This document shows positions 9,989 to 51,035 of a DNA stretch of 64,000 bases, in pieces. The position numbers and the translations under genes were made by a program. Source of the DNA: Streptomyces sp. NBC_00457 (lineage in GTDB: Bacteria; Actinomycetota; Actinomycetes; Streptomycetales; Streptomycetaceae); the NCBI RefSeq assembly GCF_036014015.1, contig NZ_CP107905.1:9672001-9736000 (forward strand). Direction: 5' to 3'. Each line of letters opens with the position of its first letter. Within the stretch, counting starts at the first letter, position 1. The notes under the pieces were generated by a model. It had not been told where the DNA came from and made no database searches. It worked only from the letters and a program-made list of their open reading frames with translations.

Positions 9989-10034
9989 TGGCAGGCCGGG
10001 TTGTGCCAGGCAGCCGTGTTCAGTGCTGTGACAG
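9989..10034 (-). promoter_or_regulatory. 46-bp redox-regulon element, copy A
   Basis: Read on the minus strand this is CTGTCACAGC, then ACTGAACACG, GCTGCCTGGC, ACAACCCGGC and CTGCCA. The half-sites CTGTCAC and CTGCCA begin 40 bp apart, as in copies B, C, D, E, F, G, H and I. It lies in the 307-base divergent region between the DUF2255 gene (start 9787) and regulator 1 (start 10095), and its CTGCCA end faces the DUF2255 gene. Nothing else recognisable was seen in that intergenic region. Confidence 0.78.
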
Positions 10035-10094
10035 GGCACCCTTCGCCGTCGTGTGCATCGGCACACGGGTCACGGGGCTGCCACACTGGAAGAC

Positions 10095-10994
10095 ATGGCA
10101 CGTGAGCAGCACAGTGGCGGTAGCGGCGGCACCGAACTGGGACGCTTCCTGCGAGCCCGCCGCAGCCGGGTGACGCCCGGTGACGTCGGCCTGCCGGCCT
10201 CCTCCGGATTGCGCCGCACCCCGGGGCTACGCCGTGAGGAACTGGCCACGCTCGCCGGCATCAGCATCGACTACTACGCACGCCTGGAGCGCGGGACCGA
10301 GACCCGTCCCAGCCCGTCCGTGATCGACGCCCTTGCCCGCGCGCTGCGCCTGGGGGAGGCCGAGCACAAGCACCTGCGAGAACTCGCGGCGAGCGCCGAC
10401 GGGAACGCGGCCGCGCCGACGACGGTGCCGAGCCGGTCCGTACCTCCGGGCACCGAGTTGATTCTGGAGAGCCTGCGGCCCAATCCCGCGTACGTCGTCG
10501 GCCGCACCTTCGAACTGCTCGCCGCCAACCCTGGCGGACTGCGCCTGTTCGCCGGGATCGAGGACTGGCAGGGGGAGCAGCGCAACCTCGCGCGCTACGT
10601 CTTCCTTCACCCCGCCGCCCGCACCCTGTTCGCCGACTGGGACGGCGCGGTCCGCAGCTGTGTCGCATGGCTGCGCGGGCTGGCCGGCATTGAGCCGGAC
10701 GCCCCCGACCTCGCGCTCATCGTCGACGAACTCCTGAGCAAGAGCCCGGAGTTCGCGCGTATGTGGGACCGCTACGACGTCAAGGGAAACACCAGCGGCC
10801 GCCATACGTACCACCATCCGGATGTCGGTGAACTCGCCCTCGGCTACCAGGGCTTGACGCTGAACGGCACCAACAGCCAGCACCTGGTCGTCTTCTACGC
10901 CGAACCCGACACGCCCGAGTACGACGCGATGGTCCTCCTCGACAAGGCCGCGCAGGAGAAGGCCTCAAAGCCGTCGACGTCGCCCGCGCAATAG
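10095..10994 (+). CDS. MmyB-like XRE-family transcriptional regulator 1
   Basis: A 299-residue regulator. The N-terminal helix-turn-helix (HTH_31 type, about residues 14-80) contains [20 protein letters not shown] and YYARLERG. From about residue 110 follows the MmyB-like (MltR_LBD) ligand domain, with PAYVVGRTFELLAANPGGLR and later NTSGRHTYHHPDVGELALGY. Family members carry a PAS-like pocket and are thought to sense a hydrophobic small ligand. Three close paralogues lie at 23437, 29406 and 50032 in this window. The ATG at 10095 begins the conserved MAREQHSGG. It is divergent from DUF2255/antiporter with element A between, so it probably controls both directions. Confidence 0.9.
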   Translation: MAREQHSGGSGGTELGRFLRARRSRVTPGDVGLPASSGLRRTPGLRREELATLAGISIDYYARLERGTETRPSPSVIDALARALRLGEAEHKHLRELAASADGNAAAPTTVPSRSVPPGTELILESLRPNPAYVVGRTFELLAANPGGLRLFAGIEDWQGEQRNLARYVFLHPAARTLFADWDGAVRSCVAWLRGLAGIEPDAPDLALIVDELLSKSPEFARMWDRYDVKGNTSGRHTYHHPDVGELALGYQGLTLNGTNSQHLVVFYAEPDTPEYDAMVLLDKAAQEKASKPSTSPAQ

Positions 10995-11389
10995 CGAACC
11001 GGCGAACCGCCGAACCCAGAACATCAAGCAAGCCATCGCCTCAGGCGTTGGCTTGAACTGACTGCTACTGCCGGACGTAGGCACGGGAGTCGTACGCAAA
11101 GTACTCCCTGGCGGCTCTCCGCCATTCGGCACAGGCTGGACCCTGCGCCGAGATCACAGCCGTAACCGCGGCCCTGTCCCGCATCTCGGCTCACTGCCGG
11201 AACGTAGAGGGCCACCCCACAACATGCTTTCGCGGAGGGCTTCCGGCGATGACCCACGTCCGCCGGGTACCGACGGACGGGCGCCTGCGCGCCTACCGCA
11301 CAGCGTTGCCGGACGGTCGTGGCGTACCAGCCCGAGACGGCCGATCTTCCGCCGCATCCGCCGCATCCCCCCAAAGCGAGAGAGTGCGT
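10995..11389. other. Intergenic region upstream of pao operon 1
   Basis: This 395-base stretch between regulator 1 and paoA holds no supported gene. A short inverted repeat, GGGAGT at 11085-11090 and ACTCCC at 11103-11108, may end the regulator transcript. At 11174-11221 a sequence starting CTGTCCCGCA and ending CCACA, with CGGCTCA inside, resembles a degenerate copy of the 46-bp element (compare CGGCTCA in copy E before the second pao operon). Its internal spacing is shifted by two bases, so it is recorded only as a candidate. Confidence 0.4.
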
Positions 11390-12028
11390 ATGACCACCGA
11401 ACTCCCGGACTCACCCATCGAACTGACCGAAGGACCCGCGCCGGTGCCCACCCGGCGCACCTTCATCGCGACGACAGCCGCCGTCGGTGGTGTGGTCGCG
11501 GCGGGTGGCCTGGTCGCGGGATCGGCGCTGACCGACCAGGACTCGCCGGCCGCCGAGGCCCCGCCCAGCGGTCGACTCTCGTTGACCGTCAACGGCGAGC
11601 GGCGCACGGTCACGATCGACAACCGGACCTCACTGCTGGACCTGCTGCGTGAGCACCTCGGGCTGACCGGTTCCAAGAAGGGCTGCAACGCGGGTGCCTG
11701 CGGGGCTTGCACGGTCCTGGTCGACGGACAGCGGGTCAACTCCTGTCTGACGCTGGCGGTGCGTCTGGAGGGCGCCGAGGTCACCACGATCGAGGGACTC
11801 GCCAACGGTGACCGGCTGCACCCGCTGCAGGCGGCGTTCGTCGAACAGGACGCTTTCCAGTGCGGGTTCTGCACACCCGGTCAGATCATGTCCGGCGTCG
11901 GCTGTATCGAGGAAGGCCACACGGACTCCGCTGAGGAGATCCGGGAGTGGATGAGCGGCAACATCTGCCGATGCGGCTGTTACGTCAAGATCGTCAAGGC
12001 GGTCGACCAGGCCGCCCACGGGAAATGA
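11390..12028 (+). CDS. paoA: Aldehyde oxidase 2Fe-2S subunit with Tat signal (PaoA-like, copy 1)
   Basis: A 212-residue iron-sulfur subunit of a xanthine-oxidase-family enzyme. A Tat signal ([20 protein letters not shown], residues 20-39) suggests folded export, as for E. coli PaoABC. Two 2Fe-2S clusters are visible: plant-type Cys99, Cys104, Cys107 and Cys119, and the C-terminal cluster Cys158, Cys161, Cys193 and Cys195. It passes electrons from the Mo site to the FAD subunit. The ATG at 11390 follows GAGAGTGCGT. It is first of an operon with paoB (12-base gap) and paoC. A second copy is at 38784. Confidence 0.92.
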   Translation: MTTELPDSPIELTEGPAPVPTRRTFIATTAAVGGVVAAGGLVAGSALTDQDSPAAEAPPSGRLSLTVNGERRTVTIDNRTSLLDLLREHLGLTGSKKGCNAGACGACTVLVDGQRVNSCLTLAVRLEGAEVTTIEGLANGDRLHPLQAAFVEQDAFQCGFCTPGQIMSGVGCIEEGHTDSAEEIREWMSGNICRCGCYVKIVKAVDQAAHGK

Positions 12029-12040
12029 GGCCCGGCCCCC

Positions 12041-13024
12041 ATGTACCCCTTCTCCTTCACCAAGGCCTCCGACACCCGTGAGGCACTCAACGCCGGGCGT
12101 CGCGGCGGGCGTTACATAGCAGGCGGCACCACCCTGGTCGACCTGATGCGTGAGACCGTCGAGCGCCCCGACACCTTGGTCGACATCAGTGACCTGCCGC
12201 TGCGGGACATTACCGTCACCGAGCGCGGCGGCCTGCGCATCGGCGCTCTCGTACGGATGACGGACGCCGCCGCCCACCCCAAGGTGCGCACCACCTACCC
12301 GGTCATCTCGCAGTCGCTGGAGCTGAGCGCCTCCGCACAGCTGCGCAACATGGCCACCATCGGCGGCAACATCATGCAGCGCACCCGGTGCACGTACTTC
12401 CGGGACGTGAGCGCCGACTGCAACAAGCGCGACCCTGGCTCTGGTTGCGCCGCGCGCGAAGGCTTCAACCGCACCCACGCAATCCTCGGCACCTCCGACG
12501 ACTGCGTGGCCACGCATCCCTCCGACGTTGCCGTGGCCTTCGCCGCGCTGGAGGCGCGCGTGCACCTCCTGGGCCCGGACGGAAGCGAGCGCACCGTCTC
12601 CTTCGCCGACTTCCTCCTGCGGCCCGGCAGTACCCCGAACCGCGAACAGGCCCTCCGGCAGGGCGAGTTGATCACCGCCGTCGAGATCCCAGCTCTTCCG
12701 CGTCCGCTCAGGTCCGGCTACCTGAAGGTCCGGGACCGGCAGTCGTACGAGTTCGCCCTCACCTCGGCCGCCGTCGCCCTGCACATCCGCGGTGGCGTGA
12801 TCCGCGAGGCGAAGGTGGCTGCCGGTGGCGTCGGCACCGTGCCCTGGAAGCTGCCCGCCGTCGAGCGCCGCCTCATCGGCGAGCGCCCCTCCAACACGCT
12901 GTGGGCCGAGGCAGCCGGGGAGGCGTCAGACGGGGCCCGGCCCCTTCAACACAACCGCTTCAAGGTCGAGTTGCTCCGGCGAACAGTCGAGCGCCAGCTG
13001 CGCATCGTAGGAGAGAGTGAATGA
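12041..13024 (+). CDS. paoB: Aldehyde oxidase FAD subunit (PaoB-like, copy 1)
   Basis: A 327-residue FAD-binding subunit (FAD_binding_5 plus CO_deh_flav_C). FAD contacts are in RYIAGGTTLVDLMRETV (residues 24-40) and ATIGGNIMQRTRC (105-117). An insertion carries four cysteines, Cys117, Cys127, Cys136 and Cys155; in E. coli PaoB the equivalent insertion binds an extra 4Fe-4S cluster, absent from classical xanthine dehydrogenase. The C-terminus GARPLQHNRFKVELLRRTVE recurs as an isolated fragment at 15411-15488. Its stop overlaps the paoC start (ATGA at 13021), implying translational coupling. Confidence 0.92.
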   Translation: MYPFSFTKASDTREALNAGRRGGRYIAGGTTLVDLMRETVERPDTLVDISDLPLRDITVTERGGLRIGALVRMTDAAAHPKVRTTYPVISQSLELSASAQLRNMATIGGNIMQRTRCTYFRDVSADCNKRDPGSGCAAREGFNRTHAILGTSDDCVATHPSDVAVAFAALEARVHLLGPDGSERTVSFADFLLRPGSTPNREQALRQGELITAVEIPALPRPLRSGYLKVRDRQSYEFALTSAAVALHIRGGVIREAKVAAGGVGTVPWKLPAVERRLIGERPSNTLWAEAAGEASDGARPLQHNRFKVELLRRTVERQLRIVGESE

Positions 13025-15219
13025 GCCCGCAGCCGCAGGCAGCCGTCGGCGCACCGCTGTCCCGGGTGGACGGGCGGCTCAAGGTCACCGGCAAGGCACA
13101 GTACGCCGCCGACTTCGACCCCGACGGCGTCGTGCACGCAGTCGTCGTCGACAGCACCGTCGCCCTGGGACGGATCACCGGCATCGACACCCGCGCCGCC
13201 CTCGCCCAGCCCGGCGTACTGACGGTGATCAGCCACCTCAACGCACCCACGCTTGAGTACCGCGACAACCCCGGGGGGTACAACCCGCCCGGCAGGCGGC
13301 TGCGCGCCTTCCAGGACGACCAGATCCTCTTTTACGGTCAGCCTGTCGCCGTGGTCGTAGCGACGACACTGGAGGTCGCGCAGCACGCCGCGAGCCTGGT
13401 GGAGGTCGAGTACGAGTCGCGGAAGCCCACGACTGGCATGAGCGGCAGTCCGGCCGGCGGCCAGCCCCAGAGCTACGCTCGGGGCGACGCGGAGGCGGCG
13501 CTGGACTCCGCGGCCGTACGCATGGACATGACCTACGGGCTCGCTCGCAATCACCACAACGCGATGGAGCCGCACGCCACCGTCGCCCGCTGGGACGGCG
13601 ACCGGCTCACCGTCTGGGACAAGACGCAGTGGGTGCAAGGCGCGCGGAACGAACTCGCCGCCGTGTTCGGCATCCCGCAGGACTCGGTGCGCGTGATCTC
13701 GCCGTTCGTCGGCGGCGCGTTCGGCAACGCGTCACGGGTCTGGCCGCAGACCACCATCGCGGCCGTCGCCGCTCGCGAGACGAAGCGTCCGGTGAAGCTC
13801 GCGCTGACCCGCGAGCAGCTCTACTTCCATGTGGGCTACCGGCCCACGTACGAGTACCGGGTACGGGTGGGCAGTGACCGGCGCGGACGGGTGACCGGGG
13901 TGATCCACGACCTGAGGTCGGAGACGTCCCGCTACGAGACGCACGGCGAGCCCATCCTGTCGCTCGGGCAGATGCTCTACGACACGCCCAACGTCCGCAT
14001 GACGCACCGGTCGGTGCCGTTGGACGTGAACACACCGACGTGGATGCGCGGCCCCGGCTACGCCACCGCCTCCTACGCCGTCGAGTCGGCGATGGACGAA
14101 CTCGCCTACGAGCTGGGCGTCGACCCGATCGAGCTGCGGCTGCGCAACGAACCGGAGGACGACCCGTCCGACGGGCTGCCGTTCTCCACCCGGCGGCTGC
14201 GCGAGTGCCTCGCCACCGGCGCCCGCGAGTTCGGCTGGAACCGCCGCAACCCCCGGCCGCGCTCCACCCGCGACGGCGACTGGCTGATCGGCACCGGCAT
14301 GGCTGCCGGCGCTTACCACACCCGGCGGGACCCGGCCGAGGCCTCGGTCCGGCTGGACGCCGACGGCACCGCGCTGGTGCAGTCCGCGGCCAGTGACATG
14401 GGGCCGGGTACCTACACCTCGATGACCCAGGTCGCCGCCGACGCCCTCGGCCTGACCATGCGCCAGGTGACCTTCCGTCTCGGCGATTCCCTCATGCCGC
14501 CGGCGCCGCTGCAGGGCGGTTCGAAGACCATGGCCAGTGTCGGGTCCGCCGTTCAGGACGGTTGCGACAAGCTGCGGCGGCAGGCGATCAGGCTGGCCGT
14601 CGCGGACGAGGGATCGCCGCTGTACGGCGTCGACGCCGCCGATGTCGTCGTACGGGGTGGTCGGCTGCACGTGAGGGACAACCCGGCGCGCGGCGAGACG
14701 TACCGGCAGCTCCTGGCCCGCAACAACCGCACGCGCCTCGAAGCGAACGGGTCCTACACGCCCGGCGAGGAAGTGGAACGGTTCTCCACCCACGCCTACG
14801 CGGCGACGTTCGCCGAGGTCGCCGTCGACGCCCGGCTGGGGCTCGTGCGAGTGCGGCGGATGCTCGGCGTGTACGACGCGGGCCGCATCATCAGCCCCAA
14901 GCTGGCCGACAGTCAGGCGCTCGGGGCCATGGTGGGCGGTATCGGCACGGCTCTCCTCGAGCACACGGTCACCGACCACCGCGACGGCCGGATCGTGAAC
15001 GCCAACCTCGCCGACTACCTCGTGCCCGTCAACGCCGACGTCCCCGACCTGCGGGCGATCTACCTCGAAGGGGAGGACACCGAGGCCGACCCCCTGGGCG
15101 TCAAGGGCCTCGGGGAGGTCGTGCAGGTCGGCGTGGCACCGGCCGTCGCCAACGCGGTGTTCCACGCCACCGGGTGCCGGATCCGCGAACTGCCCATCAC
15201 GGCCGAGGCGATGCTCTGA
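13021..15219 (+). CDS. paoC: Aldehyde oxidase molybdopterin subunit (PaoC-like, copy 1a)
   Basis: A 732-residue molybdenum cofactor-binding catalytic subunit. The N-terminal Ald_Xan_dh_C domain begins near SRVDGRLKVTGKAQYAADF, and the Mo-binding domain includes SPFVGGAFGNASRVWPQTT and MRGPGYATASYAVESAMDELA. The catalytic base glutamate is in GVKGLGE near residue 695. It oxidises aldehydes (aromatic ones in E. coli Pao) to acids, with water as oxygen source. Coupled to paoB by a 4-base overlap. A second, diverged full-length copy follows at 15499, giving an operon with two catalytic subunits for one A/B pair. Confidence 0.92.
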   Translation: MSPQPQAAVGAPLSRVDGRLKVTGKAQYAADFDPDGVVHAVVVDSTVALGRITGIDTRAALAQPGVLTVISHLNAPTLEYRDNPGGYNPPGRRLRAFQDDQILFYGQPVAVVVATTLEVAQHAASLVEVEYESRKPTTGMSGSPAGGQPQSYARGDAEAALDSAAVRMDMTYGLARNHHNAMEPHATVARWDGDRLTVWDKTQWVQGARNELAAVFGIPQDSVRVISPFVGGAFGNASRVWPQTTIAAVAARETKRPVKLALTREQLYFHVGYRPTYEYRVRVGSDRRGRVTGVIHDLRSETSRYETHGEPILSLGQMLYDTPNVRMTHRSVPLDVNTPTWMRGPGYATASYAVESAMDELAYELGVDPIELRLRNEPEDDPSDGLPFSTRRLRECLATGAREFGWNRRNPRPRSTRDGDWLIGTGMAAGAYHTRRDPAEASVRLDADGTALVQSAASDMGPGTYTSMTQVAADALGLTMRQVTFRLGDSLMPPAPLQGGSKTMASVGSAVQDGCDKLRRQAIRLAVADEGSPLYGVDAADVVVRGGRLHVRDNPARGETYRQLLARNNRTRLEANGSYTPGEEVERFSTHAYAATFAEVAVDARLGLVRVRRMLGVYDAGRIISPKLADSQALGAMVGGIGTALLEHTVTDHRDGRIVNANLADYLVPVNADVPDLRAIYLEGEDTEADPLGVKGLGEVVQVGVAPAVANAVFHATGCRIRELPITAEAML

Positions 15220-15397
15220 GCCGAGGCCGCGATACGAGCACCCCGGGCAGCCGGTTTCGTGGCGAGACGGCCGCCTGGGGTGCTCTCCGCAACCGTCCGG
15301 GCGGCGGCCACGCACCGCTGGCGGACACCAGGGCCGCTGCCGCGACCAACCGTTCCCCCACGGCGCGCGGCGGCGGCCCGTCCCATCTGTCGTCCCC
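15217..15397 (+). repeat. Post-paoC spacer, copy 1 of a tandem duplication
   Basis: From the paoC stop codon onward this spacer matches the sequence after the second paoC (17677-17870). Both contain a GAGCCCCGGGCRGCCGG block, GGACACCAGGGCCGC and a CACGGCGCG-type block ending CGTCGTCCC. Copy 1 breaks off near 15397, exactly where homology switches to the tail of paoB. It is the left side of the duplication junction. Confidence 0.75.
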
Positions 15398-15404
15398 TGC
15401 CGCC

Positions 15405-15488
15405 GAGTACGGGGCCCGTCCCCTCCAACACAACCGGTCCAAGGTCGAGTTGCTCCAGCGGACCGTCGAACCCCAGCTGCGCATCTAG
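15405..15488 (+). pseudogene. Duplicated tail of paoB
   Basis: The bases 15405-15488 encode GARPLQHNRSKVELLQRTVE then PQLRI and a stop, matching the last 27 residues of PaoB (GARPLQHNRFKVELLRRTVE then RQLRI). There is no upstream paoB here, so it is a scar from tandem duplication of a roughly 2.47-kb unit: paoB tail, paoC and spacer. The TAG stop together with the next bases creates AGGAGG, which now serves as ribosome site for the second paoC in place of the ATGA coupling used by the first. Confidence 0.85.
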
Positions 15489-15498
15489 GAGGTACCAA

Positions 15499-17679
15499 GT
15501 GAGCCCTCAGCCGCAGGCAGCCGTCGGCGCACCGCTCTCCCGCGTGGACGGACGACTGAAGGTGACCGGGCAGGCGAAGTACGCCGCTGACCACGACCCC
15601 GACGGGACCGCGCACGCGGTCGTCGTCGACAGCACTGTTGCCCTCGGACGGATCACCGGCATCGACACCCGTGCCGCCCTCGCCCAGCCCGGCGTACTGA
15701 CGGTGATCAGCCACCTCAACGCACCCGAGTTGCCGAACCTCGACACCCCGTTCGAGCAGCTGCTCGCCTTCCAGGACGAGCAGATCCTCTTCCACGGTCA
15801 GCCGGTCGCCGTCGTGGTGGCCACCACGCTGGAGTCCGCGCAGCATGCCGCGAGCCTGGTCGAGGTCACCTACGACGCCGAGCAGCCCTCCACCGACCTG
15901 ACCGAGGCTCCTCCGGCCGACGACCCCGAGACCTACGCGCGCGGCGACGCGGACGAGGCGTTGCGGTCCGCCGCCGTACGGCTGGAGATGACCTACCGGC
16001 TGGCCCGCAATCACCACAACGCCATGGAGCCCCATGCCACCGTCGCCCGCTGGGACGGCGACAAGCTCACGGTGTGGGACAAGACCCAATACGTGGTCGG
16101 CACCCAGAACCAACTCGCGGGCGCCTTCGGCATCTCGCGGGAGTCGGTGCGGGTCATCTCGCCGTTCGTCGGCGGCGCGTTCGGCAGTGCGTTGCGGACC
16201 TGGCCGCACGTCACCATCGCGGCTCTCGCCGCCCGTATGACGGACCGCCCGGTCAAACTCGTCCTGACCCGCAGGCAGCAGTACTTCGGCACGGGTTACC
16301 GGCCCGCGTACGAGTACTCGGTACGTCTGGGCAGTGATCGCCGCGGACACCTGACCGCCGTGATCCACGAACTGCGGTCGGAGACCTCCCGCTACGAAAC
16401 GCACATGGAGCCCGTCCTGGGCGTCGGGCAGATGCTCTACACGACGCCCAACGTCCGTCAGACGCACCGCTCTGTGCCGCTCGACGTGAACGCGGCCACC
16501 TGGATGCGCGGCCCCGGCTACGCCACCGCCGCCTTCCCCATGGAGTCGGCGCTGGACGAACTCGCCTACGAACTGGGCGTCGATCCCATTGAGTTGAGGC
16601 TGCGCAACGAACCGGAGGAGGACCCGTCCAGCGGGCTGCCGTTCTCCACCCGACGCCTGCGCGACTGCTACCGCGTCGGCGTCCGCGAGTTCGGCTGGAA
16701 CCGCCGCAACCCCGAGCCCCGCTCCACCCGCGACGGCGACTGGCTGATCGGCACCGGTGTGGCCACCGGCGTCTACGACGTCGTACGCAGCGCCGCCCAG
16801 GCTTCGGTCCGGCTCGACGCGAACGGCACTGCACTGATCGAGAGCTCGGCCAGCGACATGGGCCCCGGCACGTACACCTCCATGACCCAGGTCGCCGCGG
16901 ACGCCCTCGGCCTGACGATGCGCAACGTGACCTTCCGGCTCGGCGACTCCGTCATGCCGCCTGCCCCGGCACAGGGCGGCTCGCGGACCATGGCCAGCGT
17001 CGGCTCCGCCGTCCAGGACGGCTGCGACAGACTGCGGCAGCAGGCGATCCGCATCGCCGTCGAGGACGAGGACTCTCCGCTGTACGGTGCCGACGCCGCC
17101 GATGTCGTCGTACGAGGCGGCCGGCTGCACATGAAGGACAACCCGGCGCAGGGGGAGACCTACCAGCAACTCCTCACCCGCAATGACCGCGGCCACCTGG
17201 AGACGCTCGGGACCTTCACCCCGCCATCGGGACCGGCACGGTTCTCCATGTACGCCTACGGCGCGATGTTCGCCGAGGTCGCTGTCGACGCCCGTCTGGG
17301 GCTCGTGCGAGTGCGGCGGATGCTCGGCGTGTACGACGCGGGCCGGATCATCAGTCCGAAGCTCGCCGACAGCCAGGCACTCGGCGCGATGGTCGGCGGC
17401 ATTGGCGCTGCCCTGCTTGAGCACACGGTGACCGACCACCGCGACGGCCGGATCGTGAACGCCAACCTTGCCGACTACCTCCTCCCGGTCAACGCCGACA
17501 TCCCCGACCTGCGCGCGATCTACCTCGACGGCGAGGACCCCGAAGCCGACCCCATCGGCGTCAAGGGCCTCGGTGAGATCGTGCAGGTCGGGGTGGCGCC
17601 TGCCGTGGCCAACGCCGTGTTCCACGCCACCGGGCGACGGATCCGCGAACTGCCCATCACAGCGGAGGCGTTGCTCTGA
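15499..17679 (+). CDS. Aldehyde oxidase molybdopterin subunit (PaoC-like, copy 1b)
   Basis: A 726-residue catalytic subunit, a tandem duplicate of the gene at 13021-15219. All landmarks are kept: SRVDGRLKVTGQAKYAADH, SPFVGGAFGSALRTWPHVT, MRGPGYATAAFPMESALDELA and the catalytic GVKGLGE. Differences cluster in the substrate channel and middle regions (for example NLDTPFEQLLAFQDEQ for the longer loop in copy 1a), so a changed aldehyde range is possible. The GTG at 15499 is preceded by AGGAGG. The gene is intact and under coding constraint, so it is probably functional. It may replace copy 1a in the complex or form a mixed dimer of heterotrimers; this is inference. Confidence 0.9.
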   Translation: MSPQPQAAVGAPLSRVDGRLKVTGQAKYAADHDPDGTAHAVVVDSTVALGRITGIDTRAALAQPGVLTVISHLNAPELPNLDTPFEQLLAFQDEQILFHGQPVAVVVATTLESAQHAASLVEVTYDAEQPSTDLTEAPPADDPETYARGDADEALRSAAVRLEMTYRLARNHHNAMEPHATVARWDGDKLTVWDKTQYVVGTQNQLAGAFGISRESVRVISPFVGGAFGSALRTWPHVTIAALAARMTDRPVKLVLTRRQQYFGTGYRPAYEYSVRLGSDRRGHLTAVIHELRSETSRYETHMEPVLGVGQMLYTTPNVRQTHRSVPLDVNAATWMRGPGYATAAFPMESALDELAYELGVDPIELRLRNEPEEDPSSGLPFSTRRLRDCYRVGVREFGWNRRNPEPRSTRDGDWLIGTGVATGVYDVVRSAAQASVRLDANGTALIESSASDMGPGTYTSMTQVAADALGLTMRNVTFRLGDSVMPPAPAQGGSRTMASVGSAVQDGCDRLRQQAIRIAVEDEDSPLYGADAADVVVRGGRLHMKDNPAQGETYQQLLTRNDRGHLETLGTFTPPSGPARFSMYAYGAMFAEVAVDARLGLVRVRRMLGVYDAGRIISPKLADSQALGAMVGGIGAALLEHTVTDHRDGRIVNANLADYLLPVNADIPDLRAIYLDGEDPEADPIGVKGLGEIVQVGVAPAVANAVFHATGRRIRELPITAEALL

Positions 17680-17883: not shown

Positions 17884-19023
17884 ATGCTGAACATCGCGGA
17901 CACGCTGTACGACTGGTGCCGCGAGGCGCGTCCCTTCGCCCTCGCCACCGTCGTCCAGGTCAGCGGCAGCGCACCCCTGCCGCCCGGCACCGCGCTCGCC
18001 GTGGACGCGGACGGCAATGCGGTCGGCAGCGTCTCCGGAGGCTGCGTGGAGGGAGCCGTCTACGAACTGTGCCGCGAGATCCTGGCCGACTCCGGCGCCC
18101 CTGCACGGGCCCGTTTCGGCTACTCCGACGACGACGCCTTCGCCATCGGCCTGACCTGCGGTGGCGAGATCGACGTGCTGGTGCAGCGGGTGGACCCGGT
18201 CGCTCAGCACCACCTCGCCGTCGCCCTCGACGAGGTACGGCGGGGTCGGCCCGCGGCCGTGGCGCAGGTGGTGGACGGGCCGGCCGAACTCCTCGGCCGC
18301 AGCCTGTGCGTTCTCGGCGACGGCAGCGCGTACGACGGAACCCTGGGCGGCGCGCGAGAGGACAGGGCGGTCGTGGCGCAGGCCCGCGCCCTGCTCCGGG
18401 CGGGACGCACCGGACTGGTCGAGGTGGGAGGGGACGCCGACACCTGCCCCGAACGGCTGTCCGTCCTCGTCCACACCCGCGCGCCCCGCCCCCGCATGCT
18501 GATCTTCGGCGCCGTCGATTTCGCCGCTGCCCTCAGCCAGGCCGGAGCCTTCCTCGGCTACCGGGTCACTGTCTGCGACGCCCGCCCCGTCTTCGCGACC
18601 CCCGGTCGCTTCCCGTACGCCGACGAGGTGGTCGTCGACTGGCCGCACCGTTACCTGGCCGGCACCGAGGTGGACGCCCGTACCGCCGTAAGCGTGCTCA
18701 CCCATGACGCCAAGTTCGACGTCCCGCTCCTGCGCCTGGCCCTGAGCCTGCCCGTGGGGTACGTGGGTGCGATGGGCTCACGGCGTACCCACGACCACCG
18801 CCTGGGCTTGCTGCGCGAGGCGGGCGTACCGGAGACGCACCTGGCCCGTCTCCGCTCGCCGATCGGCCTGGACCTCGGTGCCCGCACCCCCGAGGAGACG
18901 GCCGTCTCCATCACCGCGGAGATCATCGCCCATGCCCACACCGGCACCGGTCTGCCCCTCTCCCACGGCACCGGTCCCATCCACCAGCCCCTTGCCGCGA
19001 AGGGTGCCCTGGCAGGTCACTGA
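17884..19023 (+). CDS. XdhC/CoxI family molybdenum cofactor chaperone (PaoD-like)
   Basis: A 379-residue XdhC protein. The N-terminal XdhC_CoxI domain starts with YDWCREARPFALATVVQVSG and GSAPLPPGTALAV, and GSVSGGCVEGAVYE is the family hallmark. The C-terminal Rossmann domain contains RPRMLIFGAVDFAAALSQAG and VGYVGAMGSRRTHDHR. XdhC proteins bind Moco, protect it during sulfuration and insert it into the catalytic subunit. It is the only xdhC in the window and probably serves both pao operons. The start at 17884 is set by CGGAG upstream. Its last codons overlap element I. Confidence 0.9.
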   Translation: MLNIADTLYDWCREARPFALATVVQVSGSAPLPPGTALAVDADGNAVGSVSGGCVEGAVYELCREILADSGAPARARFGYSDDDAFAIGLTCGGEIDVLVQRVDPVAQHHLAVALDEVRRGRPAAVAQVVDGPAELLGRSLCVLGDGSAYDGTLGGAREDRAVVAQARALLRAGRTGLVEVGGDADTCPERLSVLVHTRAPRPRMLIFGAVDFAAALSQAGAFLGYRVTVCDARPVFATPGRFPYADEVVVDWPHRYLAGTEVDARTAVSVLTHDAKFDVPLLRLALSLPVGYVGAMGSRRTHDHRLGLLREAGVPETHLARLRSPIGLDLGARTPEETAVSITAEIIAHAHTGTGLPLSHGTGPIHQPLAAKGALAGH

Positions 19024-19054
19024 ACACCGCTACAGGGCACAGCCCGGTCTGCCA
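19009..19054 (+). promoter_or_regulatory. 46-bp redox-regulon element, copy I
   Basis: The sequence is CTGGCAGGTC, ACTGAACACC, GCTACAGGGC, ACAGCCCGGT then CTGCCA, with the half-sites 40 bp apart. It closely follows copy G (CTGAACA, CGGTCTGCCACAT). It begins inside the last five codons of xdhC and points toward the SDR starting at 19153. The first half-site is weaker (CTGGCAG). Confidence 0.65.
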
Positions 19055-19152
19055 CATCGCGGCGCCGCGAAGCAGGCTGAATGCTCGTAGGAGATCCCTT
19101 CCTCGACAAAGCCCCCTTATTGCCCCCTTTTTTTGATCACAGGAGACAGACG

Positions 19153-23178: not shown

Positions 23179-23346
23179 GACTCCACGTTTCCCTTGAGCC
23201 TTCATGGCGGCTGACCGGCGCCGGAACCCTTGCCTGGCGCCGTTCCGGGTGAAGCCGCAGGCCACGCAGGTGGTGACAGGACCTCTGAGCCGTGCCAACC
23301 GCTCCTGCGGCACCTGAGTCCAGCCTGCGGAAGGGCGGACCAAGAT

Positions 23347-23392
23347 GGCAGGCCGCGCTGTGCCGTGGAGCGCCGTTCGGGGGAGCGACAGG
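23347..23392 (-). promoter_or_regulatory. 46-bp redox-regulon element, copy H
   Basis: On the minus strand: CTGTCGCTCC, CCCGAACGGC, GCTCCACGGC, ACAGCGCGGC then CTGCCA, half-sites 40 bp apart. It lies in the 258-base gap between regulator 2 (ends 23437) and the SDR (starts 23178) and points to the SDR. The gap otherwise shows no gene. Confidence 0.75.
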
Positions 23393-23436: not shown

Positions 23437-24369
23437 TCAGGACGCATGGGAGGCGGCGTCCGAGGAGGTGTCGCGTGGTGCCGTGCGGGTGGCCGGCTCC
23501 TGGCCGAGCAGGTCCAACAGGGCCATGGCGTCGTGCTCCGGGGTGGCGGGTTCGGCGTAATAGGCGATCAGACGGTGGCCGGGTGTGCCTTCCAGGAGGA
23601 GGGACTGATAGCCGAGGGTGAGGTCGCCGACCTCGGGGTGGTGGAAGGTCTTGCGGCCCTGGGCGCGGCTCTTGACGTCGTAGCGCTCCCACAGGCGCGC
23701 GAAGTCCGGGCTCTTGAGCAGGAGTTCGCCCACGAGCTGGGCCAGGTCGGGGGCGTCGGGGTCGGTGCCGGCCAGTGCCCGCAGGCGCGCCACGCAGCCG
23801 CGGACCTGGTGGTGCCAGTCCTCGAACAGGTCGCGCGCGGCGGGGTGCAGGAAGACGTAGCGCGCGATGTTGCGTTGCTTCGCCGGCCACTCCTCGATCC
23901 CCGCCAGCAGCCGAAGCCCCGCGGGGTTGGTTGCCAGGATGTCGTTGCTGCGGCTGACCACGTAGGCCGGGCCGGGGCGCAGGTTCTCCAGCAGGAGCTT
24001 CAAGCCGGGCCGCACTGTACGGCTGGGCGCGGCTGGGGGTGCCCCCTCGCTCGAGCGAAGCCGAGAGTGGGGGAGTGCGGCTACGGTCGCGAGACTGCGC
24101 AGGTGCTCGTGCTCCTCCTCTCCCAGCTGCAGGGCACGGGCCAGCGCGTCCACGACGGACGGGCTCGGCCGGGTTTCCTTGCCGCGCTCCAGACGGCTGT
24201 AGTAATCGATGCTGATACCGGCCAGGGTGGCCAGCTCCTCACGGCGCAGCCCAGGCGTACGACGCACCCCGGAGCCCGCTGCCAGGCCGACGTCCTCGGG
24301 CGTCACCCGGGCCCGGTGGGCACGCAGGAAGCGTCCCAGCTCGGTGCCGTTGTGCTGCTCACTCTTCAT
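23437..24369 (-). CDS. MmyB-like XRE-family transcriptional regulator 2
   Basis: A 310-residue paralogue of the regulators at 10095, 29406 and 50032. The helix-turn-helix contains [20 protein letters not shown] and [17 protein letters not shown]. The ligand domain has PAYVVSRSNDILATNPAGLR and [19 protein letters not shown]. The linker between domains carries PHSRLRSSEGAPPA, encoded by an inserted palindromic repeat at 24035-24075, and is longer than in the paralogues. It is divergent from the AKR operon at 24573 with element B between. SDR copy 2 follows on the same strand but has its own element H. Confidence 0.9.
   Translation of the reverse strand: MKSEQHNGTELGRFLRAHRARVTPEDVGLAAGSGVRRTPGLRREELATLAGISIDYYSRLERGKETRPSPSVVDALARALQLGEEEHEHLRSLATVAALPHSRLRSSEGAPPAAPSRTVRPGLKLLLENLRPGPAYVVSRSNDILATNPAGLRLLAGIEEWPAKQRNIARYVFLHPAARDLFEDWHHQVRGCVARLRALAGTDPDAPDLAQLVGELLLKSPDFARLWERYDVKSRAQGRKTFHHPEVGDLTLGYQSLLLEGTPGHRLIAYYAEPATPEHDAMALLDLLGQEPATRTAPRDTSSDAASHAS
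24035..24075. repeat. Palindromic interspersed repeat inside a coding sequence
   Basis: GGGGGTGCCCCCTCGCTCGA followed by GCGAAGCCGAGAGTGGGGGAG resembles the small palindromic element scattered between genes in Streptomyces. CCCCCTC pairs with GAGTGGGGG-type bases, and TCGCTCGAGCGA is self-complementary. Here it lies in frame in the linker of regulator 2 and adds about nine residues relative to the paralogues. Confidence 0.65.
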
Positions 24370-24420: not shown

Positions 24421-24466
24421 CTGTCACACCCCGGAACGCCACTCCCCGGCACAGCGCGGCCTGCCA
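24421..24466 (+). promoter_or_regulatory. 46-bp redox-regulon element, copy B
   Basis: CTGTCACACC, CCGGAACGCC, ACTCCCCGGC, ACAGCGCGGC then CTGCCA, preceded by GGGGGGCC. This is one of the copies closest to consensus. It lies between regulator 2 (start 24369) and the AKR operon (start 24573) and points to the AKR. Confidence 0.82.
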
Positions 24467-24572
24467 CCGGGCGCCCGTGACCGTCACTCTGGAGGAAGTT
24501 GAAGATCCATTTCCTGTGATCTCCCGTACCGGCGAGACCGACCCGGCGGGCACCCGCCACACGGAGCACACC

Positions 24573-25934
<1,362 letters not shown>

Positions 25935-29405: not shown

Positions 29406-30290
29406 CTACGAGGACGTCGGCGACTTCTCGGCCACGGCCATGTCGAGCAGGACCAGCCTGTCGTGGTCAGGGGTGCCCGGTTCGGCGAAGTAGGCGATGA
29501 ACCGCTGGCCGGGCGTCCCCTCGAGCTGCATCGACTGGTAGCCGGGCGTGATGTCACCGACTTCGGGGTGGTGGAAGGTCTTGCTGCCGTGGGTGTGCCA
29601 GCGCACGTCGTAGCGCTCCCACAGATCGGTGAACTCCTCGCTCTTGGAGTGCAGTTCACCGACCAGCTCGGCCAGGTCCGGCGCGTCCGGCTCGACGCCG
29701 GCCAGGGCGCGCAGGCGGCCCACACAGGCGCGGATCTGCTCGTCCCAGTCACTGAAGAGTGTCTGCGCCTGCGGATGGAGGAAGACGTAGCGCACCACAT
29801 TCCGCCGGCTCTCGGGCCAGTCGCCCATGCCCGCGAACAGCCGCAGCCCGCTCGGGTTGCAGGCGATGATGTCCATCGTCCGGCTGACCACGTACGCCGG
29901 GCAGGGCCGCAGGTTGTCCAGGAGCAAGTGCACACCGGAGCGTACGGACCGGCCCGCCTCGCCCGGGGGCTCCGCCACGGTGCTGCGCGCGGCGCAGGCG
30001 ACGAGGTCGCGCAGGTGCTCGTGCTCGGCCTTGTCCAGTCGCAGGGCACGGGCGAGGGCGTCGACGACGGAAGGGCTGGGGTTGGTCTCCTTGCCGCGTT
30101 CCAGGCGCGAGTAGTAGTCGATGCTGACTCCCGCCAGGGTGGCCAGCTCCTCGCGGCGCAGGCCGGGGGTGCGGCGCAGGCCGGGCCCGATCGGCACCCC
30201 CGCTTCCTCCGGGGTCACCCGGGTGCGGTGGGCGCGCAGGAAGCGTCCCAGTTCACTGCCGTCGCTGCCGCCCTGCTGCTCACGTGCCAT
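29406..30290 (-). CDS. MmyB-like XRE-family transcriptional regulator 3
   Basis: A 294-residue regulator of the same type as those at 10095, 23437 and 50032. The helix-turn-helix contains [20 protein letters not shown] and [17 protein letters not shown]. The ligand domain has PAYVVSRTMDIIACNPSGLR and SKTFHHPEVGDITPGYQSM. The start at 30290 begins the conserved MAREQQGG; the open frame upstream to 30446 crosses element C. Divergent from the MFS transporter at 30477. Confidence 0.9.
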   Translation of the reverse strand: MAREQQGGSDGSELGRFLRAHRTRVTPEEAGVPIGPGLRRTPGLRREELATLAGVSIDYYSRLERGKETNPSPSVVDALARALRLDKAEHEHLRDLVACAARSTVAEPPGEAGRSVRSGVHLLLDNLRPCPAYVVSRTMDIIACNPSGLRLFAGMGDWPESRRNVVRYVFLHPQAQTLFSDWDEQIRACVGRLRALAGVEPDAPDLAELVGELHSKSEEFTDLWERYDVRWHTHGSKTFHHPEVGDITPGYQSMQLEGTPGQRFIAYFAEPGTPDHDRLVLLDMAVAEKSPTSS

Positions 30291-30354: not shown

Positions 30355-30400
30355 CTGTCACACCCCGGAACACCGCTCCCCGGCACAACACGGCCTGCCG
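30355..30400 (+). promoter_or_regulatory. 46-bp redox-regulon element, copy C
   Basis: CTGTCACACC, CCGGAACACC, GCTCCCCGGC, ACAACACGGC then CTGCCG, preceded by GGGGGGCC. It differs from copy B at only a few bases. It lies between regulator 3 (start 30290) and the MFS gene (start 30477) and points to the MFS gene. Confidence 0.82.
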
Positions 30401-30476
30401 CCGCTCGCGCGGGCCGAGCAGGCTGGACCCCGCCGGGGAAAACCATCTGTCCACCTCGCTCACAGGAGAGACATCC

Positions 30477-37288: not shown

Positions 37289-37334
37289 AGGGAGACCGTG
37301 TGGTGCCGGGGAGCGCCGTTCCAGGGTGTGACAG
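37289..37334 (-). promoter_or_regulatory. 46-bp redox-regulon element, copy D
   Basis: On the minus strand: CTGTCACACC, CTGGAACGGC, GCTCCCCGGC, ACCACACGGT then CTCCCT. The second half-site (CTCCC) is weaker. It lies between ApbE (start 37215) and LtrA and points to ApbE. Confidence 0.75.
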
Positions 37335-38637: not shown

Positions 38638-38674
38638 CAGTGCCGTGCCCCGTGGGACAGATGGGAGAGGGGCT

Positions 38675-38722
38675 CTGTCACACCCCGGCTCACCGCTCCC
38701 CGGCATGGCACGGCCTGTCACA
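38675..38722 (+). promoter_or_regulatory. 46-bp redox-regulon element, copy E
   Basis: CTGTCACACC, CCGGCTCACC, GCTCCCCGGC, ATGGCACGGC then CTGTCACA. Both half-sites read CTGTCACA, making the direct repeat with 40-bp period explicit. It lies directly upstream of paoA copy 2 (start 38784) and points to it. Confidence 0.8.
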
Positions 38723-38783
38723 TGTCCACCGGGCCCAGCATGCTGCAGCAAGACCGCAATCTCCCCCCATCGAGAGAGTGGGC

Positions 38784-39428
38784 ATGACTGCCGAGCCCTC
38801 CGCATCAGATGTGTTTCCCCCCACCCAGCCCCCGTCCGCACCGACTCGCCGGACCTTCATCGCGACGACCTCCGTGGCCGGCGGTGTCCTCGCGGCGGGC
38901 GGTCTGGCCGCAGGTACGTCGCTGCTCGGTGCCGAGGCGGCCGCGGCCGCCTCGGCACCACCCGGCAGCCGTGTCACCTTGACCGTCAACGGCCGTCGGC
39001 ACACCGTCACGGTGGACAACCGGACGTCGCTGCTCGACCTGTTACGCGAGCACCTGGGACTGACCGGCTCCAAGAAGGGCTGCAACGCCGGTGCCTGCGG
39101 GGCCTGCACGGTCCTGGTCGACGGACGCCGGGTCAACTCCTGTCTGACGCTGGCGATTCGCCTGAACGGCGCTGTGGTCACCACGATCGAGGGCCTGGCC
39201 GACGGCGACGAACTGCACCCGCTCCAGCAGGCGTTCATCGACCAGGACGCTTTCCAGTGCGGCTACTGCACCCCGGGCCAGATCATGTCCGGCGTCGGCT
39301 GCATCCAGGAGGGCCACACCGGATCTGAGGACGAGATCCGGGAGTGGATGAGCGGCAACATCTGCCGCTGCGGCTGTTACGTGAAAATCGTGCGCGCGGT
39401 CGAGCAGGCCGCCGCCGACGGGAAGTAA
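38784..39428 (+). CDS. paoA: Aldehyde oxidase 2Fe-2S subunit with Tat signal (PaoA-like, copy 2)
   Basis: A 214-residue paralogue of the subunit at 11390. The Tat signal is [20 protein letters not shown], ending in an Ala-rich stretch. The plant-type cluster is in [18 protein letters not shown] plus VNSC. The second cluster is in [14 protein letters not shown] plus [10 protein letters not shown]. The start at 38784 follows GAGAGAGTGGGC, the same leader as copy 1. First gene of a three-gene operon. Confidence 0.92.
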
Positions 39429-39441
39429 GGGGCCACCCGCC

Positions 39442-42739: not shown

Positions 42740-43270
42740 TCACCAGGTCGTGGCCACGGTGCGGACCGTGGCCCAGGTGTCGCCCTTGTGGGCGTAGTCG
42801 GTGGTGAGTTGCAGCCGCCAGTCGGCGCGGGTGCCGTACACGGTCGCGTCCGTGACGGTCCGGGCGACGAGGCGAGCCGTGTCGCCCTCGATGTCGAGTG
42901 TCGTCTTCTTCTCGTCGATCGTGTGGTAGACGAACCGGCCCTGCCGCATCTCGGCCAGCCATTCGGCTTTCGGCTGCACATAGCCGGTCATGTGGGTGAG
43001 GGTGAAGTCGTCGTCGAGCAGGTCGTCGAGCGCCGCGGTGTCTCCCTCGTCCATGGCGTCCAGATAGGCGCGGTGAGCGTCGAAGATATCCTCGCGGGCT
43101 CTCTGGTCGGCTGACGGCTGCACGGTGGCTCCTGACGTGGGTGCGGTCCTGTCGGCGGACGCGGACAGTGCGGGGGCTGATGTGGGTGTCGACGACGGCG
43201 TGCAGGAGACCGCCGACACAGCCAGGGCCGCCCCCGCCGCCAGACCTGTCCATCCCCAGGATCGCTTCAT
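42740..43270 (-). CDS. SnoaL/NTF2-like (DUF4440) lipoprotein
   Basis: A 176-residue exported protein. The signal GLAAGAALAVSAVSC gives a lipobox Cys near residue 23, then a Ser/Thr/Ala-rich linker. The NTF2-like domain follows: REDIFDAHRAYLDAMDEGDT, DFTLTHMTGYVQPKAEWLAE and VYGTRADWRLQLTTDY. Members range from cyclases to binding proteins with no catalytic function, so no reaction is assigned. The start at 43270 is the first codon of MKRSWGW. It is downstream of AKR and G6PDH-like remnants on the same strand. Confidence 0.75.
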   Translation of the reverse strand: MKRSWGWTGLAAGAALAVSAVSCTPSSTPTSAPALSASADRTAPTSGATVQPSADQRAREDIFDAHRAYLDAMDEGDTAALDDLLDDDFTLTHMTGYVQPKAEWLAEMRQGRFVYHTIDEKKTTLDIEGDTARLVARTVTDATVYGTRADWRLQLTTDYAHKGDTWATVRTVATTW

Positions 43271-43393
43271 CGGCCCGGCTCCGCGTTCTCCAGCGGCCAT
43301 CGGTGACCAGGCCGTCGGCCTCGGCACGACCCCAGCTTCCGGGCTCGTAGGCGACCGGCTTCCCGTCGGGGCCGAGCAGCTCCCTGACGATGC
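43271..43393 (-). pseudogene. Remnant resembling the C-terminus of glucose-6-phosphate dehydrogenase
   Basis: On the minus strand, after an in-frame stop at 43394, the reading is RIVRELLGPDGKPVAYEPGS followed by WGRAEADGLVTDGRWRTRSR. The pattern YEPGSWGxAEADxL...DGRxWR is like the last residues of glucose-6-phosphate dehydrogenase (Zwf). No other part of such a gene is present. It sits directly against the broken AKR, so two unrelated gene ends were joined by deletion. Identification is tentative. Confidence 0.45.
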
Positions 43394-43398
43394 GCTAG

Positions 43399-45134
<1,736 letters not shown>

Positions 45135-45475
45135 GCGTTACATCCCTCATGTTCGTCGGTTGAGAGCACCCTCGGTGCGTCACCGCATCACAGTCGGCGG
45201 CGAAGAAGCGGACCGCGCCGGAGACGAGCACCTGGGCACTTCGTCCGGCGGCATCGGCCCACCACGTCCGTGAATTCGGACGACGCCCCGGCTCGTCCGG
45301 TGAGGGGCGCGTCCTGTGGTGCCGATGTTGCCGGGCGGTCAGTAAAACTCAAGCAGAGCGCCCGCCGGGGTGGGAGGCCGTGCTGTTCCACGCCGTGCCA
45401 GTGCCCCCCAAAAACCGGGCAAAGATCCCTTTTGGCCGGGCTCGGCCCGGACCGCGGGACCGCAACTGGCGGGCG
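45135..45475. other. Intergenic region between Tat-AKR and flavodoxin genes
   Basis: These 341 bases contain no supported gene. Short open frames on both strands lack family similarity. The stretch holds element J at 45371-45401 and marks the boundary where base composition falls from high GC to the lower GC of the flavodoxin segment. Confidence 0.6.
45371..45401 (-). promoter_or_regulatory. Shortened redox-regulon element, copy J (15-bp internal deletion)
   Basis: On the minus strand: CTGGCACGGC, GTGGAACAGC, ACGGC then CTCCCA, preceded by GGGGGGCA. It follows copy G for the first 22 bases and then jumps exactly 15 bases to the CGGCCT end. The half-site spacing is therefore 25 instead of 40. 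It points to the Tat-AKR gene. Confidence 0.6.
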
Positions 45476-47516: not shown

Positions 47517-47518
47517 CG

Positions 47519-48992: not shown

Positions 48993-49951
48993 TCAGTAGT
49001 AGCGGCCGCCCTGTGGGGTGGGCAGGGCATCGAGTTCGGCGAGATCGTCGGCGCTGAGCCGCACGTCGGCCGCGCCGGCGTTGTCCAGCAGGTACTTGGG
49101 GGTCTTGGTGCCGGGGATCGGGACGACGTACTCGCCCTGGGCCAGCACCCACGCCAACGCCACCTGCGCCGGTGTGACACCGATGCGCTCGGCGATCTCG
49201 CGGACCTTGTCGGCGATGGCGCGGTTGATCGCCAGGGCGTCGTCCTGGAAGCGGGCAAGGCCGCGCCGGAAGTCGTCCTTGGGCAGGTCGTCGTACGAGG
49301 TGAACCGGCCGGTGAGGAAGCCTTTGCCGAGGGGTGAGTACGGCACGAAGGCGATGTCCTGTTCCTTGCAGTACGGCAGCACCTCGGCCATCCAGTCCCG
49401 CGTCCACAGCGACAGCTCGGACTGCACCGCCGTGACCGGGTGGACGGACTGTGCCCGCCTGATCTGCTCGACACTCACCTCGGACAGGCCGATCGCGCGT
49501 GCCTTGCCTGCCGACACGGCCTCCGCCAGGGCGCCCACGCTCTCCTCGATGGGCACATCCGGGTCGACGCGGTGCAGGTAGTACAGGTCCACGTGGTCCG
49601 TGCCCAGACGCCGGAGGCTGTCGTCGATCGAACGACGAATGTGCTCCGGGCGGCCGTCGACGCCGGTGACCGCACCGTCCTTGCCCAGCACACCGACCTT
49701 GGTGGCCAGTACAGCGCGCTCGCGGTGGCCGTCCGCCAGGGCGGCCCGACCAACTGCTCGTTCGTGTAGGGGCCGTACACGTCGGAGGTGTCCAGCAGGG
49801 TCATCCCCAGGTCGAGGGACTGATGGATCACCGAAACCATCTCGGCCTCGTCACGCGGGGTCGCCTGGTCGTAGCTGAAGCTCATGCCCATGCAGCCCAG
49901 GCCGACGACGCCGACCTCGGGGCCGTCGGGGCCGAGGGTGGTGGTGCGCAT
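48993..49951 (-). pseudogene. Aldo/keto reductase disrupted by a one-base frameshift
   Basis: From the ATG at 49951 the frame reads [20 protein letters not shown] through [17 protein letters not shown], then fails. In the next frame the family sequence resumes ([36 protein letters not shown]) and runs cleanly to 48993. The break is near 49748 in the G/C run GTCGGGCCGCCCTGG, where one base appears to be missing. All catalytic residues are present across the two frames, and the rest is conserved with the AKR at 26423. It is either a recent pseudogene or a sequencing error. Confidence 0.85.
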
Positions 49952-50031
49952 GCTGTTGGTCCTTTCGGTCTTCGGTGGTTCGGACCGGGGTTCGGTGCGC
50001 GGGCGACGCACCGGCCGGGGTGAGTGCTGTG

Positions 50032-50937
50032 TCAGTCCGCGAACCCGGTACGCGATGCTCCGATCCGTGACGCGTGCGCCGAGTCGGACGCCGCCAGATC
50101 GAGCAGGACCATCGCGTCGTACTCGGTGCTGCCGGGCTCGGCGTGGTACACGACCAGCCGGTGGCCGGGGGTGCCTTCCAGCTGCATGGACTGGTAGCCG
50201 AGGGTGAGGTCGCCGACGTCCGGGTGGTGGAACGTCTTGCGGCCATAGGAGTGGCCGCGTACGTCGTAGCGTTCCCACAGGCGGGCGAACTCCGGGCTTT
50301 TGAGCAGGAGTTCACCGGCGAGCTGGGTGAGGTCGGGGGCATCCGGGTCGGTACCGGCCAGGGCCCGCAGGCGGGCTACGCAGCCGCGGACCTGGTTGCC
50401 CCAGTCGTCGAAGAGGTCGCGGGCGGTGGGGTGGAGGAAGACGTAGCGAGCGATGTTGCGCTGTCTCGCGGGCCAGTCCTCCATCCCGGCGAGGAGTCGC
50501 AGTCCGCCCGGGTTCCAGGCCAGTACGTCGCCCGTGCGGCTGACCACGTGCGCGGGCTGGGGCCGCATGGCCTCCAGCAGGAGCTTTACTCCGGGCCGTA
50601 CGGAGCGGGTGGGCGCGGTGGGCGGTTTTGGAGATGTACGCGCGGCATGCGCGGCCAGGCTGCGCAGGTGGTCGTGTTCCGGCTCCTCCAGCCGGAGGGC
50701 GCGGGCGAGGGAGTCGACGACGGACGGGCTGGGGTGGGTCTCCTTGCCGCGCTCCAGCCGGGTGAAGTAGTCGATGCTGATCCCGGCCAGGGTGGCCAGT
50801 TCCTCACGGCGCAGTCCAGGTGTGCGACGCGCGCCGGCACCGGGTGGTAGGCCGACCTCCTCGGGGGTCACCTGGGCCCGTCGGGCGCGTAGGTAGCGCC
50901 CCAGCTCGGTGCCGCCGCTGTGTTGCTCACGATCCAT
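50032..50937 (-). CDS. MmyB-like XRE-family transcriptional regulator 4
   Basis: A 301-residue regulator, paralogous to those at 10095, 23437 and 29406. The helix-turn-helix has [20 protein letters not shown] and [17 protein letters not shown]. The ligand domain has [20 protein letters not shown] and [19 protein letters not shown]. The ATG at 50937 starts MDREQHSGG, equivalent to the other starts; the open frame upstream crosses element G. Its divergent neighbour is now only an SDR fragment. Confidence 0.9.
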
Positions 50938-50989
50938 GTCTTCCGAGTGTGGGGACGACACGACTTGGGTGGAAGGCGGATGGGGTGCC

Positions 50990-51035
50990 CTGTCACGGCA
51001 CTGAACAGCACTCCGGGCTGCAACGCGGTCTGCCA
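50990..51035 (+). promoter_or_regulatory. 46-bp redox-regulon element, copy G
   Basis: CTGTCACGGC, ACTGAACAGC, ACTCCGGGCT, GCAACGCGGT then CTGCCA, half-sites 40 bp apart. It lies 53 bases from the start of regulator 4 and points to a broken SDR at 51105. Confidence 0.78.

Follow-up and report, generated by a model that had tools for sequence, protein, structure and literature searches.

A recurrent tandem half-site element in Streptomyces sp. NBC_00457 as a probable operator and promoter served by MmyB-type regulators

A 46-bp intergenic sequence recurs in a 64,000-nucleotide stretch of the Streptomyces sp. NBC_00457 chromosome (contig NZ_CP107905.1, positions 9,672,001 to 9,736,000, forward strand; hereafter the window). 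What does this element do, and which protein reads it? Most probably it is an operator joined to a promoter, on which one subfamily of MmyB/MltR-type XRE (XRE/MLTR_LBD) proteins acts; these are named here as the likely regulators. The sequence supports the element's anatomy, its spacing, its orientation and its co-occurrence with these proteins. Each element would then comprise the operator and core promoter of one local MmyB regulon. MmyB molecules would bind along the tandem array, ahead of and across the −35 box, and so recruit RNA polymerase to a weak promoter. Because the family has a PAS-like domain, as the available part of PMC3406030 describes, MmyB is probably switched by a ligand.

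MmyB-type regulators are numerous in actinomycetes, with 27 PF17765 matches in this genome alone. The element would supply a defined site, a matching promoter and a rule by which further members of the regulon could be predicted in related species. With a single operator sequence common to several paralogous regulators of one cluster, the locus also offers a test case for cross-regulation among sensor paralogues.

Tandem half-sites and spacing classes

Oriented from CTGTCAC, the nine full copies in the window align without gaps across 46 positions, and the conserved stretch continues on the left as far as a G-run and on the right as far as a −10 box (positions 65-70). Within it lie four tandem direct half-sites at offsets 0/10/25/40, in steps of 10, 15 and 15 bp. 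These half-sites (about CC[CT]GNNACA) begin at −1, 9, 24 and 39, counted from the C of the first CTG, and their units are CCCTGTCACA, CCCCGGAACA, CCCCGGCACA and GCCTGCCAC. Self-comparison of the aligned-copy profile returns direct repeats at 40, 25 and 15. The outer half-sites, which a preliminary description of this DNA had called direct repeats, are thus the first and last of four. A free four-repeat search gives 0/10/25/40 in the 54 foreign copies, in the 44 that remain without one family (f3) and in the 11 own copies, three sets that are not fully independent because a model of our own nine copies served both to find and to align the foreign ones. No column shuffle matched that quadruple (0/60 in each set), and the best single repeat pair was equalled by 2/60 shuffles in one set.

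The resulting 65-copy counts derive from 74 model matches minus nine that were set aside. The latter comprise two antisense self-overlaps (window:37287 and L131:5112), five matches judged to be chance (window:58400, L152, L153, L125:8586 and L129), L128 (25.4 bits, model positions 29-81 only) and L123:3537 (22.3 bits, adjoining a subfamily mmyB, left half only). Triplet-to-triplet spacing falls into two classes, 39-41 bp in 56 copies and 25-26 bp in nine, with none between. Element J (45371..45401, (−); spacing 25), upstream of an AKR gene at 43917-45134(−) and earlier described as a shortened copy, belongs to the short class, which also occurs in other species. One relative (G033) carries two 25-bp-class elements 1.3 kb apart, at L124:5646-5714 and L124:7009-7075, before SDR and LtrA genes; each apparently lacks a different 15-bp module. 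The left unit is also part of a dyad (centre about 4) that is most marked in family f3. A single dyad over the whole element was set aside as the poorer description, as dyad scores peak for the left module.

Target and regulator promoters

Downstream of the fourth half-site, NANNNT stands exactly 18 bp away in 61/65 copies (foreign 51/54, own 10/11), and NA...T occurs at any other spacer from 13 to 23 in 0-3 of the 65 copies each. The same spacer of 18 holds in 8/9 short-class copies, the exception being J. For these counts the fourth half-site was placed by a hand-made weight table; a stricter rule had missed nine copies. The fourth half-site reads CTGCCA, and the −10 box is a GC-rich NANNNT, usually [CG]A[GC]NNT. 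Because NA...T is fixed at spacer 18, the fourth half-site can be taken to serve the target promoter as its −35 box. The spacing between this CTG-type −35 and the −10 fits the 16-19 bp criterion for sigma-70-type promoters. The first −10 base is non-canonical: the T of strong promoters is absent in 50/51 boxes tallied, which fits activator dependence. Site position, spacing and the weak −10 together favour an activator that would bind upstream of and over the −35 box.

Four full copies in the window lie beside a divergent mmyB gene. Element A (9989..10034, (−); −10 at 9970-9965) points toward a DUF2255 gene (9410-9787, (−)) and away from mmyB1; B (24421..24466, (+); −10 at 24485-24490) toward an AKR gene (24573-25556, (+), start by eye) and away from mmyB2; and C (30355..30400, (+); −10 at 30419-30424) toward an MFS gene (30477-31877, (+), start by eye) and away from mmyB3. 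G (50990..51035, (+); −10 at 51054-51059), divergent from mmyB4, has no recognised intact gene downstream. Five others have no adjacent divergent mmyB. I (19009..19054, (+); −10 at 19073-19078), which no mmyB adjoins, and H (23346..23391, (−); −10 at 23327-23322) point toward SDR genes at 19153-19998(+) and 22339-23178(−), respectively. D (37289..37334, (−); −10 at 37270-37265) faces an ApbE gene (36298-37215, (−)), and E (38675..38720, (+); −10 at 38739-38744), both ends of which read CTGTCACA, faces paoA (38784-39428, (+), start by eye). F (43741..43786, (−); −10 at 43722-43717) faces a truncated AKR gene (43267-43635, (−)). A tenth full copy, 4.4 kb upstream of the window at C1:9667585-9667671, stands before MFS, AKR and ApbE genes and is divergent from another mmyB.

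All nine window copies named in the preliminary description are present, although direct reading moves the start of H from 23347 to 23346. The common start given there, CTGTCAC, needs amending for I (CTGGCAG) and H (CTGTCGC). The interval of 40 bases to the second CTG holds in 9/9, but the triplet there is CTC in D and F and CTG in the other seven. That each copy faces a gene or its remnant is too broad for G, downstream of which neither an intact gene nor a remnant was recognised. The suggestion of a compound operator or promoter of one regulon fits, because the copies are promoter-proximal, oriented and cluster-confined and have a fixed-spacing −35/−10 pair. Among other candidates, a structured RNA was rejected: no Rfam match reached gathering scores in the window, and the element lies upstream of the predicted transcription start. 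A tRNA or integration site was likewise rejected, with no tRNA found.

The intergenic regions also hold a second promoter, for the regulator. The four window genes all encode HTH_31 + MLTR_LBD proteins. Start codons were assigned in mmyB1 (10095..10994, (+)) and mmyB3 (29406..30290, (−)) from a −10-like CACACT, 7 and 6 nt before ATG, respectively; mmyB2 (23437..24369, (−)) has CAGACT 7 nt and mmyB4 (50032..50937, (−)) CACACT 8 nt before ATG. An alternative GTG start for mmyB3 follows CAGACT, and the longer open reading frame to 30446 would overrun element C. The mmyB-side box, NANANT and mostly [CG]A[CG]ACT, occupies one fixed position in 20/24 copies, B and G included; in A and C it lies further out. 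ATG follows the fixed box by 6-8 nt in 19/20 copies and by 2 nt in one. These 24 copies were hand-picked without family f3, and one (L124:7009) has no adjoining mmyB. In our own genome, a box stands 5-9 nt before the start codon in 5/5 subfamily genes and 9/22 other PF17765 genes, three of those 22 loci, in which the helix-turn-helix motif was not found, being scored as misses; the shuffled control gave 8%. The mmyB messages look leaderless, because the −10-like box stands only nucleotides before the start codon. By eye, two loci (L119 and L149) show an extra inverted repeat, ACCTG-N5-CAGGT, in the interval from the G-run to the mmyB −10. Several other copies have part of this repeat, which is perhaps an autoregulatory site.

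Since the mmyB promoter shares an intergenic region with the element, the regulator is probably autoregulated. The mmyB paralogues of the cluster would act in trans on elements I, H, D, E and F. Would MmyB at these sites switch genes on or off? A lesser share of the probability given above to an MmyB-served element, and not an addition to it, goes to repression by the same protein: the array would block the −35 until its release by a substrate or acyl ligand, and mmyB would be negatively autoregulated. The coincidence of the fourth half-site with the −35 box speaks for this, as does the XRE regulator MsrR of Corynebacterium glutamicum, which represses a divergent MFS gene and itself according to the available part of PMC7532634. 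Nonetheless, repression is the less probable mode: the near-universal absence of the first −10 T agrees with dependence on an activator, the core promoter has three of the four half-sites upstream of it, and MmyB itself activates its own targets, the antibiotic genes (PMC3406030, in part). Ligands of MmyB/MltR-type regulators are there described as fatty-acid or furan-type.

Association with MmyB-type regulators

Six of the 27 PF17765 matches in the genome lie within or just outside the segment that holds the elements. Matches to both PF17765 and HTH_31 exceed the curated cut-offs in the four window mmyB genes and in two genes just upstream of the window. Five of the segment's regulators adjoin elements (A, B, C, G and the tenth copy); they share one helix-turn-helix type, and the element is directly upstream in 5/5. 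The sixth, at C1:9665546, has another helix-turn-helix type and no element. Around the other 22 PF17765 genes, flanks of 1.5 kb on each side gave no match above 7.1 bits save a single one near L068 (17.2 bits, some 0.5 kb away), which was judged to be chance. A PDB sequence search with the regulator returned no match at 1e-3; up to E 10 it gave mostly short XRE helix-turn-helix matches, 3pxp not among them.

These observations allow a bolder, tentative reading that we find plausible but somewhat less likely than not. The operator may be modular, built of direct half-sites in tandem (10-15-15 bp) of which the last doubles as −35; a 15-bp module would be gained or lost (40 versus 25-26) around a fixed 18-bp core, and output would be tuned by the number of half-sites. 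At least five MmyB paralogues, probably with different ligands, could then pool their signals onto one redox regulon.

Does the association hold in other genomes? Profile R1, built from the nine window copies (89 columns, sequence only), and the mmyB2 protein (E 1e-75) were run on the same 150 genomes, our own included (149 foreign). With 29 first-look candidates per genome and strict filters for R1, and 15 per genome for mmyB2, the counts, all among the matches listed, are lower bounds. The foreign list comprises every match of at least 22 bits, some of 20-22 bits and, on account of the mmyB genes beside them, two of 18.5-18.8 bits. The matrix scan of other genomes, which the preliminary description had proposed, places 39 of the 51 foreign elements that reach 22 bits immediately upstream of a gene of the same regulator subfamily. 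Conversely, such an element lies directly upstream of 39/55 foreign subfamily mmyB genes, or 42/55 with weaker matches of 18.5, 18.8 and 21.3 bits included. All these foreign pairs are divergent, the element pointing away from mmyB. Partners divergent from mmyB are AKR, MFS and DUF2255 genes here, and AKR, ADH, MFS, DUF2255 and CMD genes in relatives; mmyB4, across element G, has no intact partner. On plasmids (12 of 25 listed records), a match stands just upstream of 8/9 subfamily genes (10.8-37.4 bits, several weak) and of 0/3 distant paralogues.

The element could instead belong to another regulator or a sigma factor, with mmyB linked merely through conserved gene order. We consider this unlikely. 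It draws on the fact that the link between MmyB and the site is a correlation, and on the palindromic sites of the family elsewhere (PMC3406030, in part, and the inverted repeat of another subfamily here). Against it, orientation and closeness to a subfamily mmyB are kept across genomes with different targets. Moreover, of the 25 foreign genomes in which an element reaches 26 bits, 24 have a subfamily mmyB match (one, G081, with an internal stop), versus 31/149 foreign genomes overall. The exception, G039, has a fragmentary subfamily mmyB match beside its element (L125:5334-5669).

Service by the MmyB subfamily is also favoured by the 12 foreign elements of at least 22 bits that no subfamily mmyB adjoins, in that nine of them precede a homologue of a window gene: ApbE in G055, on the same contig as that genome's mmyB element and 2 Mb from it, paoA (G040), SDR and LtrA (G033), MFS (G068 and G105), AKR (G059), DUF2255 (G039) and a hypothetical gene (G011). 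Such elements are to be expected if the regulon acts in trans, but common descent of modules would leave them too.

Several points weigh against an MmyB-served activator site. Activation is argued from site position and the weak −10 alone, copy G drives no visible gene and copy F a broken one, and nothing was recognised downstream of three mmyB-free foreign elements (G014:C303, G099 at 363940 and G021). MltR/MmyB sites are described as (pseudo)palindromes (PMC3406030, in part), and clear dyad symmetry in the element is confined to the left module, the whole reading mainly as direct repeats. The partial dependence of the foreign profile on our own model belongs here too. Finally, the first scan left 13/55 foreign subfamily genes without an element. 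Ten of these 13, all but G101, G097:C5 and G100:C12, were searched again under relaxed settings. This search gave weak short-class matches in G052 and G067 and matches of 13-15 bits in G092 at 8082658 and G051 at 6603518. It gave none for G104:C476, G068 at 6255341, G075, G099 at 9834804 and G033 at 30193; for G014:C5 no match lay directly upstream.

Operators of the SARP type in Streptomyces consist of tandem direct repeats at or near the −35 of the activated promoter, about 11 or 22 bp apart. The element resembles them in its tandem direct repeats near −35; SARPs are a different protein family, and the steps here are 10, 15 and 15. Closer in protein are the MmyB B-boxes of the methylenomycin cluster of Streptomyces coelicolor (cited in PMC3406030, available in part), which, like the element, are proposed sites of an MmyB-type XRE regulator with a PAS-like domain for nearby genes. 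Compared by description only, the B-boxes are pseudo-palindromic, whereas the element has four tandem direct half-sites with the last on −35. MltR (Caur_2278, PDB 3pxp) and the actinomycete divergent MmyB-SDR/MDR pairs described in the same source share the Pfam architecture and a regulator divergent from an enzyme gene. In the available part of that source no operator sequence accompanies those pairs; the present comparison resolves an operator, both promoters and apparent trans sites.

Another MmyB subfamily, represented by our paralogue at C1:9788273 and 12 further loci (L168-L179), also has mmyB divergent from an apparent SDR gene (by eye). It shares CACACT (in one locus CATACT), which stands just ahead of the mmyB start codon by a few nt, and CCTG half-sites near the −35 regions. 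Yet in these 13 loci the half-sites form an intergenic inverted repeat and not a tandem direct array, a further point against the favoured reading. Because the divergent layout and half-sites are so similar, it may be a general trait to have half-sites close to both −35 regions, with the tandem array peculiar to the subfamily studied here. For a second subfamily taken for comparison (L068), the search gave a single foreign relative. Already in print are the regulator family, its divergent SDR/MDR partners and the pseudo-palindromic B-boxes (PMC3406030, in part). Among the papers listed in an open-access literature search, none described this element, a direct-repeat MmyB operator or an operator grammar for MmyB proteins.

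Genomic distribution and cluster context

How widely is the element spread in its own genome? Under a leave-one-out matrix the nine copies score 40.6-58.9 bits, and elsewhere in the window no score exceeds 16.0. In a full-matrix scan of the window, the sole non-copy above 8 bits is an antisense overlap of copy D (13.9). Across the genome (10,802,565 bases, one contig), a degenerate pattern with at most three mismatches finds ten places, all within C1:9667597-9723021; the reversed control finds two. Scoring the best 150 of 10,776 first-look candidates, R1 recovers the same ten copies at 58-77 bits and J at 19.7, and among these candidates there is no further convincing copy, the remaining matches being at most 17.9 bits. 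The own-genome matrix scan proposed earlier thus finds oriented matches concentrated in one 55-kb segment, which holds all full copies, and not scattered.

The copies could also be remnants of duplicated intergenic DNA, or of a small mobile repeat, with no regulatory function. The cluster is rich in paralogues, G and F face nothing intact, and reversed traces of an mmyB-type −10 upstream of E and D (by eye) suggest descent from mmyB-target modules. We hold this explanation to be very improbable. Conservation among the nine window copies drops sharply beyond about −9..48 except for the −10 box, spacing is 39-41 or 25-26 with nothing between, similar elements precede homologous genes in other species, and the own-genome search gave no convincing copy elsewhere. 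A mobile repeat of the MITE or REP-like kind was rejected, the copies lying within one 55-kb segment and oriented to genes.

The weak R1 matches include two mirror pairs, at C1:39540 and 10762992 and at 100507 and 10702022, each pair at equal distance from the chromosome ends. Because of this mirror pairing, the chromosome would seem to carry terminal inverted repeats of at least 100 kb.

The cluster itself contains two paoABC-type molybdenum hydroxylase sets (11249-17679 and 38640-42623). The first has the large subunit twice, at 13021-15219 and 15499-17679, and in the second the large subunit was judged from its N-terminus only; the small subunits seem, by eye, to carry TAT signals. Apparently truncated aldo/keto reductase (AKR) genes lie at 43267-43635 and 48993-49691. 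Two DUF2255 genes (9410-9787 and 31912-32310) are 68% identical, and a similar pair of membrane proteins, antiporter-like by eye, is encoded at 7708-9291 and 34223-35809. On the strength of these two pairs, the cluster seems to have grown by duplication.

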